A stretch of DNA of 64,000 bases from Natronobacterium gregoryi SP2 (GTDB lineage Archaea; Halobacteriota; Halobacteria; Halobacteriales; Natrialbaceae). Numbering within the stretch: position 1 is the stretch's first letter; each line of letters starts with the position of its first letter. The translations under genes were made by a program, and so were the position numbers. The stretch is from NCBI RefSeq assembly GCF_000230715.2, contig NC_019792.1, positions 2,108,001 through 2,172,000 of the forward strand. The letters run 5' to 3'. The notes under the pieces are model-generated. The model saw only the letters and a list, made by a program, of their open reading frames with translations. It had not been told where the DNA came from and did no database searches. Of the stretch, positions 41,532-55,297 are shown piece by piece.

Positions 41532-43016
41532 ATGCAATCGCTTGCTGGTGATTCCATCGTCGTCGTCGGCGGTGGTATCGGGGGACTCTCGACGGCCTGT
41601 TATCTCGCCGACGCGGGTGCCGACGTGCGAGTTATCGAGAAAAACGAGCAACTGGGAGGTCGTGCGAGTCGCCTCGAGACGGACGGCTTCGAGTTCGACA
41701 TGGGGCCGTCGTGGTACCTGATGCCCGACGTCTTCGAGCGGTTCTTCGCGGATTTCGATCGAGAGCCGTCAGAGTACTACGGGCTCACCCACCTGGACCC
41801 ACACTACCGGATCTTCTTCAAAGACGAAGACAGGGTCGACGTGACTCCTGATCTCGAACGCACGAAAGATGTCTTCGAGGAGTACGAGCAGGGCGCGGGC
41901 GAGACGCTCGAGCGCTATCTCGAGAAGTCACGGGAGAACTACGAGATTGGGATGAAACACTTCGTCTACGAGGACCGGGAGCGACTCCGGGACTATCTGG
42001 ACCTGGACGTCGCCCGACAGGCGCGGGGGCTCTCGCTGCTGGGATCGATGCAGGGCCACGTCGAGAACTACTTCGATCACCCGAAACTCCAGCAGATAAT
42101 GCAGTACACGCTGGTGTTTCTGGGGGGCTCACCGAAGAACACGCCGGCGCTGTACAATCTGATGAGCCACGTCGACTTCAACCTCGGCGTCTGGTATCCC
42201 GAAGGCGGAATGAAAAGCGTCGTCGACGGCATCGCCGACCTCGGCCGGGAGCTGGGCGTCGAGTACGACACCAACCGACCGGCGACGGCGATCAAGGGAC
42301 GTGAAGGAGCGTTCCTCGTCGAGACGCCCGAGGGGCCGCTCAAGCCAGATCTGGTCGTCTCGAACACCGATTACGCCCACGCCGAACAGGAGTTGCTCGC
42401 GCCCGATCAACGTGGCTACGACGCCGACTACTGGGAGTCACGGACGTACGCCCCCTCCGCATTCTTGCTGTATCTCGGCGTCGAGGGCGACGTCGACGAG
42501 CTCGCCCACCACACGCTCGTCCTCCCGACCGACTGGGACCACCACTTCGATCAGATCTTCGAGGACCCACAGTGGCCCGACGACCCTGCCTACTACGTCT
42601 GTGTCCCCTCGGAGACCGACGACGCCGTCGCTCCCGAGGATCACAGCAACCTGTTCGTGCTGGTCCCGATCGCGCCGGGACTCGAGGACACGCCCGAGAT
42701 CCGCGACCGGTATCGCGACGACGTGCTCGACGACCTCGCGGAGAACACTGGAACCGACCTCCGTGACCGGATCGTCCTCGAGGAGCGGTTCTGCATCGAG
42801 GACTTCGCCGACCGGTACAACAGCAACCAGGGGACGGCGCTTGGCCTCGCTCACACGCTTCGACAGACGGCACTGTTCCGCCCGCCACACCGCTCGAAGG
42901 AGGTCGACGGACTCTACTTCGTCGGCGGCGATACGACGCCCGGCATCGGCGTTCCGATGTGTCTTATCAGCGGCGAAGTGACGGCCGAGAAGGTGCTCGA
43001 GGACTACGGCCGATGA
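41532..43016 (+). CDS. crtD: Carotenoid 3,4-desaturase / phytoene-desaturase family
   Basis: 494 aa FAD-dependent CrtI-type desaturase. The dinucleotide-binding motif VVVGGGIGGLSTACYLADAG is at the N-terminus; GRASRLETDGFEFDMGPSWY follows; the C-terminal FVGGDTTPGIGVPMCLISGE is the CrtI signature. It is the first gene of a tight trio with a lycopene elongase and CruF, the arrangement of bacterioruberin operons in which this gene is the 3,4-desaturase CrtD rather than phytoene desaturase. Confidence 0.88.
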   Translation: MQSLAGDSIVVVGGGIGGLSTACYLADAGADVRVIEKNEQLGGRASRLETDGFEFDMGPSWYLMPDVFERFFADFDREPSEYYGLTHLDPHYRIFFKDEDRVDVTPDLERTKDVFEEYEQGAGETLERYLEKSRENYEIGMKHFVYEDRERLRDYLDLDVARQARGLSLLGSMQGHVENYFDHPKLQQIMQYTLVFLGGSPKNTPALYNLMSHVDFNLGVWYPEGGMKSVVDGIADLGRELGVEYDTNRPATAIKGREGAFLVETPEGPLKPDLVVSNTDYAHAEQELLAPDQRGYDADYWESRTYAPSAFLLYLGVEGDVDELAHHTLVLPTDWDHHFDQIFEDPQWPDDPAYYVCVPSETDDAVAPEDHSNLFVLVPIAPGLEDTPEIRDRYRDDVLDDLAENTGTDLRDRIVLEERFCIEDFADRYNSNQGTALGLAHTLRQTALFRPPHRSKEVDGLYFVGGDTTPGIGVPMCLISGEVTAEKVLEDYGR

Positions 43017-43044
43017 CGACTCAGACTGCTCGACTGTGAGAACG

Positions 43045-43917
43045 ATGACGGAAACGACTGCCTCGGGACGCGACGATCGACTCGTCGCTCACTTCCGATA
43101 CTTGCTGGTGCTGTCGCGGCCGCGGTTCTGGCTCTACCTGGCGGGACCGGTACTGGTCGGCGTCGCCTACGCGGCCGGGACCACTGCCGACCTGTTTGCA
43201 CCTGCGGCTGTCGTCCTCTTTGGCTACTTTCTGGTCCCGGCGAACGTCTTCCTCTACGGCGTCAACGACATCTACGACCGCGAGATCGACGCCGAGAACC
43301 CGAAGAAAGACGACCGTGAGGTGCGGTACGGTGGCCAACGATACGTGCCGATTGCCGTCGTGGTCTGTGGCGTGTTCCCCTTGCTGTTCGTGTCCGTCGT
43401 TCCGACGGCAGCCTGGCCGTGGATCGTCGCGTTCCTCTTTCTGGGGGCGGCCTACAGCGCGCCCCCGTTTCGATTCAAGACGACGCCGCTGCTGGATTCG
43501 GTCTCGAACGGGCTCTACGTGGCACCCGGCGTGGCGGCCTACGCGGCCGTCGCCGGGACCCAGCCCCCTGTTCTCGCAATTCTGGGCGGCTGGCTGTGGG
43601 CGATGGGAATGCACACCTTTTCGGCCATCCCCGACATCGAACCTGACCGTGCGACCGGGACCCGAACGACAGCGACGGCACTCGGCGAGCACCGAACCTA
43701 CGCCTACTGTGGCGCGTGCTGGCTGGCGAGCGCCGTCGCGTTCGGCGCGATCGACTATCGGCTCGGGGCCGTCATGCTGGTCTACCCCGGACTGATCGCA
43801 GGAATCGTCGTCTCGAACGTCGCCGTCGATCGGGCCTACTGGTGGTTCCCGGCCATCAACACCGCCGTCGGTACGCTGCTGACGGTCGGTGGGCTCTGGA
43901 GGGTCGTCCATGGATAA
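43045..43917 (+). CDS. lyeJ: UbiA prenyltransferase, lycopene elongase
   Basis: 290 aa from the ATG at 43045. Eight or nine membrane helices; the UbiA Asp-rich motifs are NDIYDREIDAENPKKDDRE and DIEPDRATGTRTTA. It adds C5 units to lycopene, leading to dihydrobisanhydrobacterioruberin. It sits between crtD and cruF and overlaps cruF by 8 nt. Confidence 0.92.
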   Translation: MTETTASGRDDRLVAHFRYLLVLSRPRFWLYLAGPVLVGVAYAAGTTADLFAPAAVVLFGYFLVPANVFLYGVNDIYDREIDAENPKKDDREVRYGGQRYVPIAVVVCGVFPLLFVSVVPTAAWPWIVAFLFLGAAYSAPPFRFKTTPLLDSVSNGLYVAPGVAAYAAVAGTQPPVLAILGGWLWAMGMHTFSAIPDIEPDRATGTRTTATALGEHRTYAYCGACWLASAVAFGAIDYRLGAVMLVYPGLIAGIVVSNVAVDRAYWWFPAINTAVGTLLTVGGLWRVVHG

Positions 43918-44812
43918 CACGAACGCGACGAATCACGACAGACGAGAGACGAGCGGACGACGCGGAGCCGTCCAGCGTCGTCTCGAGGCGCTCATTCGGC
44001 AGAATCGGTTCACGATCGCCGTCGTCTTCCCGGTCGTCGGCGCGGTGACACTGGTCGCGAGCGCGGAGGGGTGGCTCCCGGAGCCACTCGCGTACAACCC
44101 CCTGTTTATCCTGTTTGGAACGGCGGTCATGCGTTCGCCGCTACTCGTCGGGGTCCTCCCGCGGATCGGCTGGTGGGCGCTGGGCTGTCTCGGCGTTCTG
44201 ACGGCATACACCTACGCGATCGAGGTGGTCGGCGTCCGGACGGACTGGCCCTACGGTGCCTTCGAGTACACGATCCAGCTCGGGCCGATGCTGCTGGGGG
44301 AGGTGCCGATCGCGCTTCCGCTGTTTTTCATCCCACTGGTGCTGAACGCCTACCTGCTGACGCTGCTGGTGCTTGGTGACTGGAGCGACCGACTCCTGGT
44401 GAGGGTCCCAGTCGCGATTGCGGCCGTCGTCGCCATCGACGTCGTTCTCGACCCGGCGGCCGTCGCCATCGGTTTCTGGGCCTTCGAGTCCGGCGGGTTC
44501 TACGGGGTCCCCCTCTCGAACTACGCCGGCTGGGTGCTGTCGGGGACCGTCGCCGTTGCGCTCGTCGATCTCGCGTTCGAGCGATCTGGACTGCTAGAGC
44601 GGGTCCGGGTGTGTGAGTTCATGCTGGACGACCTGGTGAGTTTCGTGTTGCTGTGGGGGTCGATCAACCTCCTGTACGGGAACTGGCTCGCCGCGGGTGT
44701 CGCTGGGTTGTTCTGTCTCGGCCTGTTCAGCACCGACCGATACGACCGTGAGATGGTGCTGACGGCGCTTCCCCGGTTCGATCCGGACCCCTCGAGCGGA
44801 CCGCGAAACTGA
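43910..44812 (+). CDS. cruF: Bisanhydrobacterioruberin hydratase CruF
   Basis: 300 aa from the ATG at 43910. Seven or so helices of the carotenoid-hydratase family: FTIAVVFPVVGAVTLVASA, LGCLGVLTAYTYAIEVVG and RTDWPYGAFEYT, the latter a conserved loop (WPYGxFxY). It adds the tertiary hydroxyls of bacterioruberin. Last gene of the trio. Confidence 0.92.
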   Translation: MDNTNATNHDRRETSGRRGAVQRRLEALIRQNRFTIAVVFPVVGAVTLVASAEGWLPEPLAYNPLFILFGTAVMRSPLLVGVLPRIGWWALGCLGVLTAYTYAIEVVGVRTDWPYGAFEYTIQLGPMLLGEVPIALPLFFIPLVLNAYLLTLLVLGDWSDRLLVRVPVAIAAVVAIDVVLDPAAVAIGFWAFESGGFYGVPLSNYAGWVLSGTVAVALVDLAFERSGLLERVRVCEFMLDDLVSFVLLWGSINLLYGNWLAAGVAGLFCLGLFSTDRYDREMVLTALPRFDPDPSSGPRN

Positions 44813-44890
44813 CGGCATCGTCCGCCGGCCGTCCGCTGACGTCGTCTTTTCTTCGCAACACGACCGTCTAGCACGTAACAATTAACACGC

Positions 44891-44920
44891 CGTAAACTGA
44901 TGTGAATATCGTGGTTTACG
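44891..44920 (+). promoter_or_regulatory. BirA-box-like operator over the bioB start
   Basis: Perfect inverted half-sites CGTAAAC (44891-44897) and GTTTACG (44914-44920) separated by 16 bp. This matches the bacterial and archaeal biotin-operator form (GTAAAC, N14-16, GTTTAC). The GTG start of bioB at 44902 lies inside it. An HTH-bearing BirA is encoded at 54359-55297. Confidence 0.75.
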
Positions 44921-46041
44921 AGACAGCGAACCGAGTGATCGACGAGGCGGTGACGCGCGTGCTCGACGGCGAGTCGCTCGATCGAACCGACGGACTGGCG
45001 CTGATCGCCCAGCCGGTCGACGAACTCGCCGCGGCGGCGGACTACGTCCGGGAACAGTTCGGCGACGGGACGGTCGATGCCTGTTCGATCGTCAACGCGA
45101 AAGCCGGCAACTGCGCCGAGGACTGTGGGTTCTGTGCCCAGTCCGTCCACTTCGATACGGGTATCGACACCCACGACTTCCTCGAGCCCGAGGAGATTCT
45201 CGAGGCCGCAAAACGCGCCGAACGGGACGGTGCCCAGCGGTTCGGCATCGTCGTCGCAGAGAAAGGCGTCTCCAAGCAGCACCGTCCCGAGGAGTGGCGA
45301 GACGTCATCCGGGCGATTCGCCTGGTACGGGACGAAACCGACGTCGAGATCGACGCGTCGCTTGGCATTCTGACCGAAGACGAAGCCGAAACCCTCGCCG
45401 AGGAGGGAATCGATCACTACAATCACAACGTCGAAACCTCGCCGCGATTTTTCCCGGAGATCGTCGACACCCACAGCTTCGAGGACCGAGTGAAGACGCT
45501 CGAAATCGCCAAGAACGCAGGCATGGACCTCTGTGCGGGCGTCATCCTCGGAATGGGTGAGACGCCGACCGACCGCGTCGAAGCGGCCATCGCGTTACAG
45601 GAGATTGGGATTTCGTCGCTTCCCGTGAACGTGCTCAACCCCGTTCCGGGAACGCCGCTTGCCGAGCGACTTGGCGGCTCGGCGGATATATCGACGGCAG
45701 AGATCGTCGAGACGGTCGCGGTCTATCGACTGCTTCACCCGACCGCGAGAGTTCGCCTGACTGGCGGGCGAGAGGCGAACCTCGAGCCCGACGAACAACA
45801 CCTGCCGCTGGAAGCCGGTGCCGACGGCCTCCTCACCGGCGACTACCTCACGACGGGCGGCCAGTCGCCGGACGAGGACCTCGAGATCATCGAACGCGCC
45901 GGCATGCGCCCGAACATGGACGCAAACGAGTTCGATCCCGATGCGGTACGTACGCGGGCCGACGAACCCGTTCGCGACCGTGACGGAGCCGACATCGACG
46001 CAGCCGCGGAACCGAACGCAGCAACCGACCAAACCGACTGA
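44902..46041 (+). CDS. bioB: Biotin synthase
   Basis: 379 aa radical-SAM enzyme that inserts sulfur into dethiobiotin. The SAM cluster is AGNCAEDCGFCAQS (CxxxCxxC); downstream YNHNVETS, CAGVILGMGET, PVNVLNPVPGTPL and RLTGGREANL are BioB-specific. The start is a GTG inside a BirA-box-like palindrome. An acidic tail of about 40 residues extends past the usual end. The next gene follows after 6 nt. Confidence 0.95.
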   Translation: MNIVVYETANRVIDEAVTRVLDGESLDRTDGLALIAQPVDELAAAADYVREQFGDGTVDACSIVNAKAGNCAEDCGFCAQSVHFDTGIDTHDFLEPEEILEAAKRAERDGAQRFGIVVAEKGVSKQHRPEEWRDVIRAIRLVRDETDVEIDASLGILTEDEAETLAEEGIDHYNHNVETSPRFFPEIVDTHSFEDRVKTLEIAKNAGMDLCAGVILGMGETPTDRVEAAIALQEIGISSLPVNVLNPVPGTPLAERLGGSADISTAEIVETVAVYRLLHPTARVRLTGGREANLEPDEQHLPLEAGADGLLTGDYLTTGGQSPDEDLEIIERAGMRPNMDANEFDPDAVRTRADEPVRDRDGADIDAAAEPNAATDQTD

Positions 46042-46047
46042 GACAGC

Positions 46048-47133
46048 ATGACGGAGATCACCTTTGCGGTACTGGGAACCGGTGGTATCGGCCGACGAAC
46101 GCTCGAGGTTAGCCAGCACGCGGACGGGCTCGTCCCGGTCGCGGCCTGTGACCGGAACGGAATCGCCGTCGATCACAACGGACTCGACGTCGACGAACTG
46201 CTCGCGGCAACGGAGGGGAACGTCGCGGGCGACGGCCGCGGCGACACTGCGGGACCGGACGCGACGACCGACGGCGGCGTCGAGGCAAGCGGGACGGGAG
46301 GCGGCGTCAAACAGACCGGTGACGGAGCGGGCGTCGTCGCCTCCGAGCAGGGGGAGCCGACCGATACGCCGATCGACGACGTGATCGCGGAGTCGGAGCC
46401 GATCGACGCCGTCCTTATCGCGTTGCCGAACCTCGAGCACGATTTCATCCCCCGCATCGCCGATCGGTTCGTCGACGCTGGCTACGCCGGCGTGCTCGTG
46501 GACGTGCTCAAGCGCTCGCGGGTCATCGACATGCTCGACGAGCGCGCGGAGACCTTCGAGGACGCCGGGATCACGTTCGTCTGTGGTGCCGGTGCGACGC
46601 CGGGGTTGCTGACGGGCGCAGCGGCGCTTGCCGCTCAGTCGTTCGTCGAGGTACAGGAGGTCGACATCTGGTGGGGTGTCGGTCTCAAGTCCGGCTACGA
46701 GGACAACCGCGGGACCGTCCGCGAGGACATCGCTCACCTCGACGGCTACGACGTCGAAACTGCCCGGTCGCTCAGCAAAGACGAAATCGAGGAGCTCGTC
46801 GAGGAACACGACGGCGTCCTGGAGTTTCACGACATGGAACACGCCGACGACGTTCTGCTGGAACGGGCGGGAATCTGTGACGCCGACGATGTCTCCGTCG
46901 GCGGCATTCTCGACGTCCGCTCGGACGAGAAACCGACCACGACGACCGTCAGCGTGACCGGGACGACGTTCGACGGTGAGACGGCGACCAACACGTTCCA
47001 ACTCGACGACGACACGAGCATGGCGGCCAACGTGAACGGTCCCGCGCTGGGCTACATGAAAGCGGGCGTAATGCGCCACCGCGTCGGCGACGACGGCGTC
47101 TACGGCCCCGCAGAACTGATGCCGCGGTTTTGA
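46048..47133 (+). CDS. bioU: NAD(P)-binding oxidoreductase, candidate BioU (DAPA synthase)
   Basis: 361 aa. Rossmann start TFAVLGTGGIGRRTLE, then a Gly/Asp-rich insertion (about 57-108), then VDAGYAGVLVDVLKRSRVID with Lys155, and FVCGAGATPGLLTGAAALAA. It lies between bioB and bioF in an operon that has no bioA. In cyanobacteria BioU, a saccharopine-dehydrogenase-like protein, replaces BioA as a single-turnover enzyme using an active-site Lys near residue 124. Allowing for the insertion, Lys155 falls in the matching place. The call is inference from context, size and that Lys. Confidence 0.65.
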   Translation: MTEITFAVLGTGGIGRRTLEVSQHADGLVPVAACDRNGIAVDHNGLDVDELLAATEGNVAGDGRGDTAGPDATTDGGVEASGTGGGVKQTGDGAGVVASEQGEPTDTPIDDVIAESEPIDAVLIALPNLEHDFIPRIADRFVDAGYAGVLVDVLKRSRVIDMLDERAETFEDAGITFVCGAGATPGLLTGAAALAAQSFVEVQEVDIWWGVGLKSGYEDNRGTVREDIAHLDGYDVETARSLSKDEIEELVEEHDGVLEFHDMEHADDVLLERAGICDADDVSVGGILDVRSDEKPTTTTVSVTGTTFDGETATNTFQLDDDTSMAANVNGPALGYMKAGVMRHRVGDDGVYGPAELMPRF

Positions 47134-47145
47134 CTCCGAGAGACC

Positions 47146-48356
<1,211 letters not shown>

Positions 48357-48357
<1 letters not shown>

Positions 48358-49049
48358 TGACCGATCCCGTCGATCCCGGGACCGGCGTCTTCGTCGCTGG
48401 AACCGGAACCGGCGTCGGCAAGACCGTCGTCACCGCCGGCCTGACCGGCTGGCTCCGAAGCGAAGGGGTCGCTGCTCACGCTATCAAACCGGCACAGACC
48501 GGTGCACCCGAAGACGACGACGCAGGGACGGTTGCCGACGTCTGTGACGAGCCAACTGCGTCGACGTGTCTCCGGCGACTGGAACCACCGCTTGCACCCC
48601 GCGTCGCGGCGTCGGTCACAGATGAATCGCTCTCCTACGACGACATCGTGGCTGGCTGTCGCTCGCTGGCCGCTGACGAGACGGTCACGATCGTCGAAGG
48701 AATCGGCGGCGTTCGAGTCCCACTCGCCGACGGCTACGAAGTGCTCGACCTCGCTGCCGACCTCGGCTTTCCCGCCATCGTCGTCGCCCGTTCCGGGCTC
48801 GGAACGCTGAACCACACCGCGCTAACCGTGGCTGCACTCGAGAACCGGGGGCTGTCCGTCGCCGGGATCGTTCTCAACGAGTACGAAGGGGAGACGCTGG
48901 CCGAGCGGACGAACCCCGCGGAACTCGAGCGAATGACGGCCACACGAGTCGCGACCGTCCCGCCGCTCGAGGTCGACGATGGCGGGGCGGTCGTCGACGG
49001 CGTCCGGCAGAACGTTCCGTCGTCATTACTGCCAGTCGCTCTCGAGTAG
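48357..49049 (+). CDS. bioD: Dethiobiotin synthetase
   Basis: 230 aa from the ATG at 48357. P-loop VAGTGTGVGKTVVTAGL and KPAQTGAPEDDDAGTV, then IVEGIGGVRVPLADGY, LNHTALTVAAL and IVLNEYEG. It closes the ureido ring of dethiobiotin with ATP and CO2. Its presence after bioF, with no bioA, makes the bioU-like gene the only candidate for DAPA synthesis in the operon. Confidence 0.93.
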
Positions 49050-49092
49050 CGGCCGGGTTTCCGGACGGCACACAACAGCCGACGAGTCCCGA

Positions 49093-50055
49093 CTACTGCG
49101 TCGGTACGCTGTCGCCCGGCTCGTGACTGTGAAGGTCCGGCTCGGTCCCGGGTTCGGCGGTCGGGACCGCCGAGACGCGCTGGAACACTGCCTCGGGGTC
49201 GCGGTTCCAGTGCCAGTGCCAGCGGGTCTTTGCGACACACCACAGTTTCCGGGTCGTCGACAGCGACGGCTCGGAAGAGAGGACGTCGTACTCCTGCTCG
49301 CGGATGAGCGCGTGGTGTTCGGCGTACAGCACCGCCGCCAGGAGGACGGGAAGCTGGCAATCTTCGGGGAGATATCGGATGCCTGCGACGCCGTCCCGGT
49401 AGAGTTCTTCGGCCCGCTCGAGTTCGTGAGCCATCGCCCGTGCAAACGAGTCGGTGTACTCGAGGGTCTCGATGTCCTCGTTCGGGACGCCGTACTCGCG
49501 AAGCGTCTCCTGTGGAAGGTAGATCCGGTCGCGGCCGAGGATGTCTTCACGGACATCACGAAGGAAGTTCGTCAATTGAAACGCCTCGCCGAGTTTGACG
49601 GCGTGGGGAAGCGCCGCCTCTTCCATCTCGGGTTCCATGATCGCGGTCATCATCACACCGACGGCCGCGGCCGACCCGCGCATGTACGACTCGAGGTCGG
49701 CGTATGTTTCGTAGTGGCTCTTCGTGATGTCGGTCGCCATCGCGTCGACGAACTCGTCGACTTCCTCGTCGTCGATGCCGTACTGTGTTTTGAGCTCCTG
49801 GAACGCCTCGAGAACCGGGTCTTCCGGCTCGGCTTCGCCGAGTGCCTGGGCGCGCAACGACTCGAGTTCGGCTCGCTGGTCTGGTGGAGAGACGCCGTCT
49901 GCGTCGTCGACGACCTCGTCGGCGATCCGGAAAAACGCATAGAGGACGTGCGTGGCGTGACGAACGCGCTTTGGCAAGAATCTGGTCGCGAGATAGAACG
50001 TCTTTCCGGTGCGCTTCTGGATCTCCTTCCCTTCGTCTACGTGTTCCCGTTTCAT
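49093..50055 (-). CDS. crtB: Phytoene synthase
   Basis: 320 aa from the ATG at 50055 (MKREHVDEGK); the frame continues upstream but lacks family sequence. Squalene/phytoene synthase fold with both Asp-rich motifs: FFRIADEVVDDADG and NFLRDVREDILGRDRIYLP. It joins two GGPP to phytoene, feeding bacterioruberin and retinal. Transcribed with, or just after, the Bat-like regulator. Confidence 0.93.
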   Translation of the reverse strand: MKREHVDEGKEIQKRTGKTFYLATRFLPKRVRHATHVLYAFFRIADEVVDDADGVSPPDQRAELESLRAQALGEAEPEDPVLEAFQELKTQYGIDDEEVDEFVDAMATDITKSHYETYADLESYMRGSAAAVGVMMTAIMEPEMEEAALPHAVKLGEAFQLTNFLRDVREDILGRDRIYLPQETLREYGVPNEDIETLEYTDSFARAMAHELERAEELYRDGVAGIRYLPEDCQLPVLLAAVLYAEHHALIREQEYDVLSSEPSLSTTRKLWCVAKTRWHWHWNRDPEAVFQRVSAVPTAEPGTEPDLHSHEPGDSVPTQ

Positions 50056-50119
50056 TTCTAACTCGGATGCACCGCGAGGCACCGTGATATCCACGGTACA
50101 ACACGTGCGTATAAAATAA

Positions 50120-51748
50120 CTACCCCTCACTAGTAGGGTCGACGGCGAACAGTTCTGCGAGCAGTTTCTGCTGGGCGGCCCGGAGATGCTGGTGAAACGT
50201 CGACCGGGAGACACCCATCGATTCGGCGAGCTCCTCACCCGAGGTGCCACGAGGCCACTCGAAGTACTCCGAGTAGAACGCCTTCCGAAGAGCCATCGCC
50301 TGCCGATCGGTCAGTTCCGAGTCGAGTTTCGCAAGCACGTCCCGTGGCGTCTGCGTCGGCTGGTCGGACTCGTGATAGCTGAGCAGCTCGACCCGATCGT
50401 ACCGCTCCTCTAAGACGTTGTAGATGGATCGGGTCGACTGGCCGTTCGGTAACTGGAGTGCCAGATCGACGACGCGATTGTTGGGGGCGGCGTCGAGTCG
50501 CTGAATAACGCCACCGTGATCGCCAATCGCCGTGACGACGTCGTCTGACAGCGCCAACTCGAGTAACGCCCCGTCTCCGTACTCCGAGAGCACCGTGGCC
50601 TCCGTAACTCCATCGAGACTGGCCGCGACGTCGGCGACGCCGTCCCGCTGGTCGACGTAGAAGAACGCGAGTGCCGTCCCGTCCCGGTCGTAGGTCAGTC
50701 CACGGTACGTCACGGACGCCTCGAGATCGGTCGCGAGCGCACCGACGAACAGTGAGGAGTCCTCGATTGCGACCTCGAGTTCGACGACAGTCTCCGTCGT
50801 TAGCATCCGTCGCGCTTCGATCGCGTTCATCGCCGTCGACACCGTCCCAGCAAGCGACTCGAGGACGAGCAGTTCCCTGTCGTCGACGACTTCAGCCTCC
50901 TCGGCGAACAACACGAGCACGCCGTAGGTAACGTCGCCGTACTCGAGCGGGACGGCAGCCACCGACTGGAACCACTCGCCCGCACCCGTCGGCCACCACT
51001 GGTCGGCGTCCTCGAACGTCCCGACGTCCTGGATGACCTGCGATTCGCCCGCGTCGAGTGCGCTGACGGCTGGGTGGGTTTCGTCCGACGAGAGCACGAG
51101 TTCGTCAGTCTCGAGTGGCACGTCGTCGCGGCCGGCCCACTCGCGCGGGGAGATTCGCTGTGCCGTGACGTCGACGCGGCCGACCCAGGCGAGAACGTAG
51201 GGGTCGGTGGCCGTGAGCCGCTGACAGACACGGCGTTCGATTTCGTCGCGACTCGTCGCACCGACCGCCGCGTCGGTAACATCGCGAACAAGTCCGTCGA
51301 CCCGCTCGAGGACGTGCTCGAGGGACTGCTGTTCTTCTCTGAGGCGCTGGGCTGCCTCGTCGGCCTCGATCTCTGCTAGCTTTCGGTCGGTGATCTCGAG
51401 ATGGAGGACCGCCACCCGATCCTCCCCATCGACAGTAAACCGGCTTGCTCGCATCAGGAACCACTGTTTTTGGGCGGGCGTCTGGCAGGGATACTCCATC
51501 GAAACCGAGTCGCGGTCGCCCGCGAGGACGGCCTCGAGGCCGTCGGCTGCGCGGCGTGCGTACTCGTCTTGCTCGGCCATCCTGGCAGTCGCGACGTAGT
51601 TGACCCCCACGTGGTCTGTTTTGCCGTCACGGTCGAGTTCGTCCCACGCACGATTCGTCAGGAGGATATTGCCATTACCGTCGAGCACGGCGACGGTAAT
51701 CGGCAGTGTATCGAGGGCCGCTTCGGCGAGTGCGTCCCGGGTAGCCAT
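50120..51748 (-). CDS. Bat-like PAS-GAF-HTH transcriptional regulator
   Basis: 542 aa. PAS (10-125: DTLPITVAVLDGNGNILLTN), a coiled linker, GAF (155-320), a bacterio-opsin activator-type middle region (330-460), and a C-terminal HTH_10 (LTDRQAMALRKAFYSEYFEWPRG, ELAESMGVSRSTFHQHLRAA). Bat proteins activate bacteriorhodopsin and retinal or carotenoid genes under low oxygen or light. This one is 64 bp upstream of crtB in the same direction, so crtB is a likely target. No opsin gene is in the window. Confidence 0.88.
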   Translation of the reverse strand: MATRDALAEAALDTLPITVAVLDGNGNILLTNRAWDELDRDGKTDHVGVNYVATARMAEQDEYARRAADGLEAVLAGDRDSVSMEYPCQTPAQKQWFLMRASRFTVDGEDRVAVLHLEITDRKLAEIEADEAAQRLREEQQSLEHVLERVDGLVRDVTDAAVGATSRDEIERRVCQRLTATDPYVLAWVGRVDVTAQRISPREWAGRDDVPLETDELVLSSDETHPAVSALDAGESQVIQDVGTFEDADQWWPTGAGEWFQSVAAVPLEYGDVTYGVLVLFAEEAEVVDDRELLVLESLAGTVSTAMNAIEARRMLTTETVVELEVAIEDSSLFVGALATDLEASVTYRGLTYDRDGTALAFFYVDQRDGVADVAASLDGVTEATVLSEYGDGALLELALSDDVVTAIGDHGGVIQRLDAAPNNRVVDLALQLPNGQSTRSIYNVLEERYDRVELLSYHESDQPTQTPRDVLAKLDSELTDRQAMALRKAFYSEYFEWPRGTSGEELAESMGVSRSTFHQHLRAAQQKLLAELFAVDPTSEG

Positions 51749-54358: not shown

Positions 54359-55297
54359 TCACACGGGCCGCAAGTGCTCACAGTCACCCGCCGTCACCGA
54401 GGCTCGCTCCCCGTCGTCTGTCTCGACGACGAGTGCGCCACTCTCCGTCACGTCGACCGCCTCGCCGACGACCTCACCGCCTGGTCGGTCGACGCTGACG
54501 CGCTGGCCGATCGTCGCTGCCAGCTCACGCCAGACCGGGACCACCGCCTCGAGGTCGGTCCGATACCGATCGAACTCTTCCAAGAGCCGCTGGACGAACC
54601 GCCGACGGTCGATGTCGCCGGCCTCGGCACGGATACTCGTTGCCCCCTCCGGAAGATCGGCAGCGTCTACGTTCGCGTTGACGCCGATCCCGACGACGAG
54701 CCACGAGACTCGATCCGTCTCACCCTCCATCTCGGTGAGAATTCCCGCGAGCTTTCGATACTCGTTTCCCACCCCGGGGAGAATCACGTCGTTTGGCCAC
54801 TTGATCCCGGCGTCGACGCCGGCCTCGCGGACCGCTCGAGCGGTCGCGACCGCTGCAGCCAGCGTGTACAGCGGTGCCTGCGCGGGCGCGATCGACGGCC
54901 GGGTGACGACGCTGGCCCAGACGCCACCCGACGGTGCCGCCCACGCTCGCTCGAGTCGGCCTCGGCCGCCGGTCTGTTCGTCGGCGAGGACGACGACGTC
55001 CTCGTCGCCGGCGGTCGCGCGCTCTCGCGCACGATCGTTCGTACTTCCGACGGCATCGTGGTACTCGATTTCGAACGGTGCCTCGAGCCTAAACTCGACC
55101 GCTGGGCCGCTGTAGGCCGCAATCTCTTCGAGGCGGTAGCCAGTCGGCTCGCTCTCGATTTCGAACCCGGCCTCGCGGAGCGCCTCGACGTGTTTCCAGA
55201 TCGCCGCCCGCGAGATTTCGAGTGAGTCGGCGAGTTCCGGCCCCGAGGCTGGGCCGTCGGCGAGTTCCTCGAGGATCGCGTGTCGCGTCTCGTTCAT
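54359..55297 (-). CDS. birA: Biotin protein ligase / biotin repressor BirA
   Basis: 312 aa from the ATG at 55297. An N-terminal winged helix (ILEELADGPASGPELADSLEISRAAIWKHVEALREAG, in full at 6-45) precedes the ligase domain: GSTNDRARE, ADEQTGGRGRLERAW, IKWPNDVI and KLAGILTE, then VVGIGVNAN. A C-terminal SH3-like domain ends with VDVTESGALVVETDDGE. The HTH makes it a bifunctional repressor, and the bioB operator in this window fits its expected site. It biotinylates acyl-CoA carboxylase. Confidence 0.94.
   Translation of the reverse strand: MNETRHAILEELADGPASGPELADSLEISRAAIWKHVEALREAGFEIESEPTGYRLEEIAAYSGPAVEFRLEAPFEIEYHDAVGSTNDRARERATAGDEDVVVLADEQTGGRGRLERAWAAPSGGVWASVVTRPSIAPAQAPLYTLAAAVATARAVREAGVDAGIKWPNDVILPGVGNEYRKLAGILTEMEGETDRVSWLVVGIGVNANVDAADLPEGATSIRAEAGDIDRRRFVQRLLEEFDRYRTDLEAVVPVWRELAATIGQRVSVDRPGGEVVGEAVDVTESGALVVETDDGERASVTAGDCEHLRPV

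Follow-up and report, generated by a model that had tools for sequence, protein, structure and literature searches.

The window analysed here is a stretch of 64,000 nt from Natronobacterium gregoryi SP2 (GCF_000230715.2, NC_019792.1, positions 2108001-2172000), whose genome of 3.79 Mb lies on a single contig and is 99.98% complete. It carries four intact, tightly packed genes on the plus strand in the order bioB-X-bioF-bioD (Table 1). Six bases separate the bioB stop from the ATG of X and 12 bases separate the X stop from the ATG of bioF, while bioD begins at the bioF stop. The start of bioB is taken as the GTG at 44902, although homologues suggest a GTG at 44911 as a possible start, and that of bioD is either the ATG at 48357 or a GTG at 48354. 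The BioB and BioD assignments exceed the cut-offs of their profiles, and BioF, with 406.7 bits against a cut-off of 426 for TIGR00858, falls slightly below. These NCBIfam matches of the neighbours confirm, with the same coordinates, what a sequence-only reading of this DNA had claimed, namely a biotin operon without bioA: no bioA lies inside it, and BioF is the sole protein of the operon in which Pfam recognises an aminotransferase fold. A birA-like gene for a biotin protein ligase, a consumer of biotin, lies about 5 kb downstream.

Table 1. Features of the biotin operon and its surroundings, in window positions
Feature	Position	Strand	Evidence or remark
Bacterioruberin pathway genes flanking the operon (CrtI/CrtD-type desaturase, LyeJ-like prenyltransferase, CruF, phytoene synthase-like gene)	41532-44812 and 49093-50250	second segment -	
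bioB, biotin synthase	44902..46041	+	TIGR00433, 3.7e-102, 342 bits, over cut-off
X = bioU, BioU family, 361 aa, predicted KAPA-to-DAPA step	46048..47133	+	NF047886, Slr0355, Foldseek
Low-complexity insertion of X, residues 59-90, predicted disordered	46222..46317	+	pLDDT <50, variable length, fast change
Lys155 codon, equivalent of sacrificial Lys124 of Slr0355	46510..46512	+	K in 101/101 ungapped sequences
His265 codon, equivalent of His233 of Slr0355	46840..46842	+	H in 101/101 ungapped sequences
bioF, 8-amino-7-oxononanoate (KAPA) synthase	47146..48357	+	TIGR00858, 7e-122
bioD, dethiobiotin synthetase	48357..49049	+	TIGR00347, 1.1e-35, over cut-off
birA-like biotin protein ligase	54374..55072	-	TIGR00121, 1e-52, over cut-off

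The operon sits between the convergent genes cruF and crtB, in the interval 44812-49093. One congener that lacks bio genes (G085) has this site empty, with the ends of cruF and crtB about 70 bases apart (site compared in L132 and L133), and in a second congener (G167) it is filled by the operon, whose proteins are 83-88% identical to those described here. The operon is thus a discrete block placed between two convergent carotenoid genes. Among 80 named haloarchaeal loci this location recurs only in Halobiforma nitratireducens (L004), and in several other haloarchaea the operon is carried on plasmids. In a comparison with Halobiforma in steps of 250 bases, identity is 96-100% across a block from about 44,050-44,260 to about 49,050 that comprises the 3' part of cruF and the complete bio operon, but mostly about 74-89% in the two flanks. 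To judge from this pattern, the tract of about 5 kb seems to reflect recent recombination or transfer, in which a copy was exchanged between two lineages.

What is X? BioU as a kind of enzyme has reportedly been known since 2020. The BioU profile of NCBIfam (NF047886, (S)-8-amino-7-oxononanoate synthase BioU) matches X at E=1.4e-100 over residues 98-361 and a second, N-terminal stretch, and neither Pfam nor NCBIfam offers a rival family of comparable standing. Pfam gives no match above cut-off, and the PLP class-III aminotransferase domain is not found in X by that search. A phmmer search of the PDB gave significant matches only to the Slr0355 entries 6ir4, 6k36, 6itd/6k37, and 6k38 (3e-82 to 9e-81). 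Pairwise alignment places X at 44% identity to Slr0355, the BioU of Synechocystis PCC 6803, with which it shares the full length of the fold, the lysine and histidine discussed below, the Rossmann glycine motif (GTGGIG against GFGGLG), and the motifs DMEHADD and SMAANVxGPA. Unlike Slr0355, X is archaeal and is encoded in a bioB-bioU-bioF-bioD operon.

The score of X against NF047886, 336.5 bits, lies below the equivalog cut-off of 600 bits, as do those of all 109 haloarchaeal BioU matches, the best of which reaches 349 bits and the intact copies of which score about 300-349. We read this cut-off as a naming threshold that leaves out the archaeal branch rather than as a biochemical feature. Automatic annotation consequently misses the family in haloarchaea.

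The sequence-only reading had placed Lys155, in the motif VDVLKRS, at the position of the BioU lysine. The phmmer alignment bears this out exactly: VLVDVLKRS of X stands against VLVDALKRT in 6ir4 and VLVDALART in the K124A mutant 6itd. Because the residue opposite Lys155 is K in the former and A in the latter, Lys155 corresponds to Lys124. Residue 233, mutated in 6k38 (H233A), is by counting along the chain the histidine of DMEHADD and corresponds to His265 of X. The invariance of both residues (Table 1) refers to a set of 101 distinct sequences, 100 of them haloarchaeal plus Slr0355, in which the sole gap belongs to one frameshifted copy.

The predicted structure points the same way. An AlphaFold model of X, built from 35 haloarchaeal sequences, has a mean pLDDT of 82 and a pTM of 0.82, and its top five Foldseek matches in the PDB are all BioU (6ir4, 6itd, 6k36, 6k37, and 6k38), with E values of 1.7e-39 to 6.3e-37, TM scores of 0.84-0.85 by query and 0.93-0.94 by target, and rmsd of 1.9-2.3. 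The best of these is 6itd (1.7e-39, TM 0.85/0.94, rmsd 1.9 for the predicted model). The sixth match, an amino-acid dehydrogenase, drops to 5e-9, and diaminopimelate, lysine, and saccharopine dehydrogenases form a weak second tier. X has the overall Rossmann dehydrogenase architecture in common with the Gfo/Idh/MocA and amino-acid dehydrogenase superfamily, but the resemblance is weak: Foldseek values are 5e-9 or worse against 1.7e-39 for BioU, and the Pfam matches lie below cut-off. Profile, alignment, and predicted fold together uphold the earlier assignment of X to a Rossmann oxidoreductase of the BioU type.

Ahead of Lys155 lies a low-complexity insertion, also anticipated by that reading and now evident both in its variable length and in the model, where residues 59-90 form the only stretch with pLDDT below 50. 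The span between residues 49 and 109 holds 59 amino acids in X against 24 in Slr0355, and 39-89 in most haloarchaeal proteins. Amino-acid change in the insertion is about three times faster than in the rest of BioU, and this rate, together with the predicted disorder, makes it look like a surface loop. Two divergent members (L125 and L126, from genomes G021 and G287) have just 25-30 residues in the same span, that is, short insertions like that of the cyanobacterial protein, in operons of the order bioB-bioU-bioF-bioD whose BioB proteins are only about 55% identical; they may represent an early branch or have arrived by a separate transfer.

Is there a bioA elsewhere that would make X dispensable? 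The BioA profile (TIGR00508), which describes the PLP-dependent DAPA aminotransferase, has no match over cut-off in the 3.79-Mb genome, nor in any of 294 Halobacteria genomes in a search that scored at most five candidates from each; a finding that could have told against the sequence-only reading was thus looked for at both levels and not encountered. The three nearest class-III aminotransferases of N. gregoryi have as their best matches ArgD/LysJ, an acetylornithine-type enzyme, and HemL, and the gene of the ArgD/LysJ-like protein adjoins argC; all three were rejected as BioA. BioA-like proteins in four other genomes (G047, G116, G077, and G190) score 305-311 bits, below the BioA cut-off, and the one BioA-like protein that was scanned (L115) is fitted better by the aminotransferases PRK07483/PRK06917 than by BioA. 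If X is BioU, it takes the same pathway step as BioA with an unrelated fold and cofactor.

Profile searches of the same 294 genomes detected BioU in 109, BioB in 130, and BioF in 120. BioU is present in 106 of the 110 genomes that have both bioB and bioF (Fisher p = 8e-71, shared ancestry ignored). In the four exceptions, the 8-9 kb surrounding bioB-bioF contain no bioD either, and bioU debris persists between bioB and bioF in two of them: L119 has C-terminal fragments in two reading frames and L120 an N-terminal one. We conclude that bioU and bioD were lost together, which is what one would expect of enzymes acting in sequence. The order bioB-bioU-bioF-bioD is found at 71 of the 80 named loci; bioD precedes bioF at one, and eight hold a partial set, in some cases close to the end of a contig. 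Elsewhere in the phylum, BioU matches in a sample of 295 came only from within the same order, the best 80 of 455 matches in a scan of contigs were all haloarchaeal, and none was found in viral contigs.

Some genomes depart from a single intact copy. In L122, L123, and L124 (G266, G150, and G249) bioU is frameshifted in otherwise complete operons, a state that genuine decay or an error of sequencing may explain. Halorientalis salina NEN8 carries two bioU loci (L034 and L056) in one assembly, and in G231 both bioU and bioB are present twice; gene dosage might be relevant for a single-use enzyme.

Sequence homology and the predicted fold, the conserved Lys155 and His265, the setting in the operon, the missing bioA, co-occurrence, and co-loss all agree with BioU and support the view that X is a haloarchaeal BioU, which with high probability makes DAPA from KAPA, the product of BioF, in place of BioA. 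How would it do so? In the published scheme for Slr0355, Lys124 links the enzyme covalently to DAPA in a step that uses NAD(P)H, the resulting conjugate is carboxylated, and NAD(P)+ drives the release of DAPA-carbamic acid, so that the enzyme is used once (PMC12915131, PMC7133116). The reaction of X, its carbamate step, its single turnover, and its cofactor preference are drawn by analogy with the cyanobacterial enzyme. On this model, Lys155 and the ketone of KAPA would condense, NAD(P)H would reduce the imine, and DAPA would become tethered to X. Addition of CO2 to the tethered DAPA would give a carbamate, and oxidation of the lysine side by NAD(P)+ would release DAPA-carbamic acid to BioD, leaving X without its lysine nitrogen and spent after one turnover. 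BioW, a source of pimeloyl-CoA, was not found in the N. gregoryi genome, which leaves the steps before BioF unaccounted for and tells against treating de novo biotin synthesis in this organism as established.

Might X instead be a true catalyst, which makes DAPA from KAPA with Lys155 as an acid/base or as the site of a transient imine while ammonia or a free amino acid gives the amine? The nitrogen source is not readable from sequence, and the dehydrogenases and reductases of the second structural tier do use free ammonia or amines. Yet BioU structures fit X far better than any of them, X is 44% identical to a proven single-turnover enzyme, and the lysine and histidine are invariant in 101 sequences, which makes this very unlikely. 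To a related idea, that haloarchaeal BioU serves for more than one turnover because Lys155 is regenerated or an external donor supplies the amine, with the long, hypervariable, disordered insertion serving reuse or the disposal of spent enzyme, we give a still smaller chance. That X has some other role in the operon, such as regulation, while a distant class-III aminotransferase performs the BioA step, appears extremely improbable. Plasmid-borne copies are indeed labelled 'transcriptional regulator' or 'hypothetical protein' in RefSeq, and haloarchaea have several class-III aminotransferases, but X is by its predicted model a full-length BioU of dehydrogenase fold, the nearest aminotransferases of its own genome resemble ArgD, an acetylornithine-type enzyme, and HemL, no BioA passes the cut-off in the 294 genomes, and the loss of bioU coincides with that of bioD.

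The operon could also be a decaying remnant without biotin output in a cell that imports biotin via BioY. This importer is present in N. gregoryi and in 278 of the 294 Halobacteria, and some relatives have the frameshifted bioU described above or decayed operons. Being nearly universal, BioY offers no informative contrast with BioU. In two genomes (G131 and G197), BioU, BioB, and BioF occur with no BioY detected, so that among the biotin sources searched for, the biosynthetic pathway is the sole one recognised there. Against decay stand the four intact genes of this operon, the complete operon at 71 of 80 loci, and the pattern of substitution between genera outside the insertion, where dN is about 0.11-0.14 and dS about 0.6-1.0, non-synonymous change being about one tenth to one fifth as frequent as synonymous change. 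The chance that the operon is such a remnant is accordingly very small.

A survey of 31 Halobacteria species in 2018 found bioF in 18, bioD in 14, bioB in 19, and bioA in none (PMC6138646), a published gap that BioU explains. Where a microarray study published in 2024 on Haloferax mediterranei names Lsm-regulated genes, it lists HFX_5076 (bioD), HFX_5077 (bioF), and HFX_5079 (bioB), and HFX_5078 is not named beside them in that part of the paper (PMC10779274). By its position, HFX_5078 should be bioU. Our search of the literature, which did not extend to the original BioU paper of 2020, found no paper placing BioU in haloarchaea. The original paper, or databases built on it, may mention a BioU of Haloferax mediterranei; if so, the archaeal occurrence was known, and what is new is its scale, the co-loss with bioD, and the annotation gap.

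Within a known enzyme family, X and its relatives make up a new archaeal branch that is widely shared, and their function is very likely that of BioU. The labels that RefSeq plasmid records give the gene, 'hypothetical protein' and 'transcriptional regulator', can be corrected accordingly, and salt-adapted homologues are now on hand for the study and engineering of BioU. By analogy with the cyanobacterial enzyme, those members of a whole archaeal class that make biotin would rely for the DAPA step on an enzyme that is destroyed by a single turnover.
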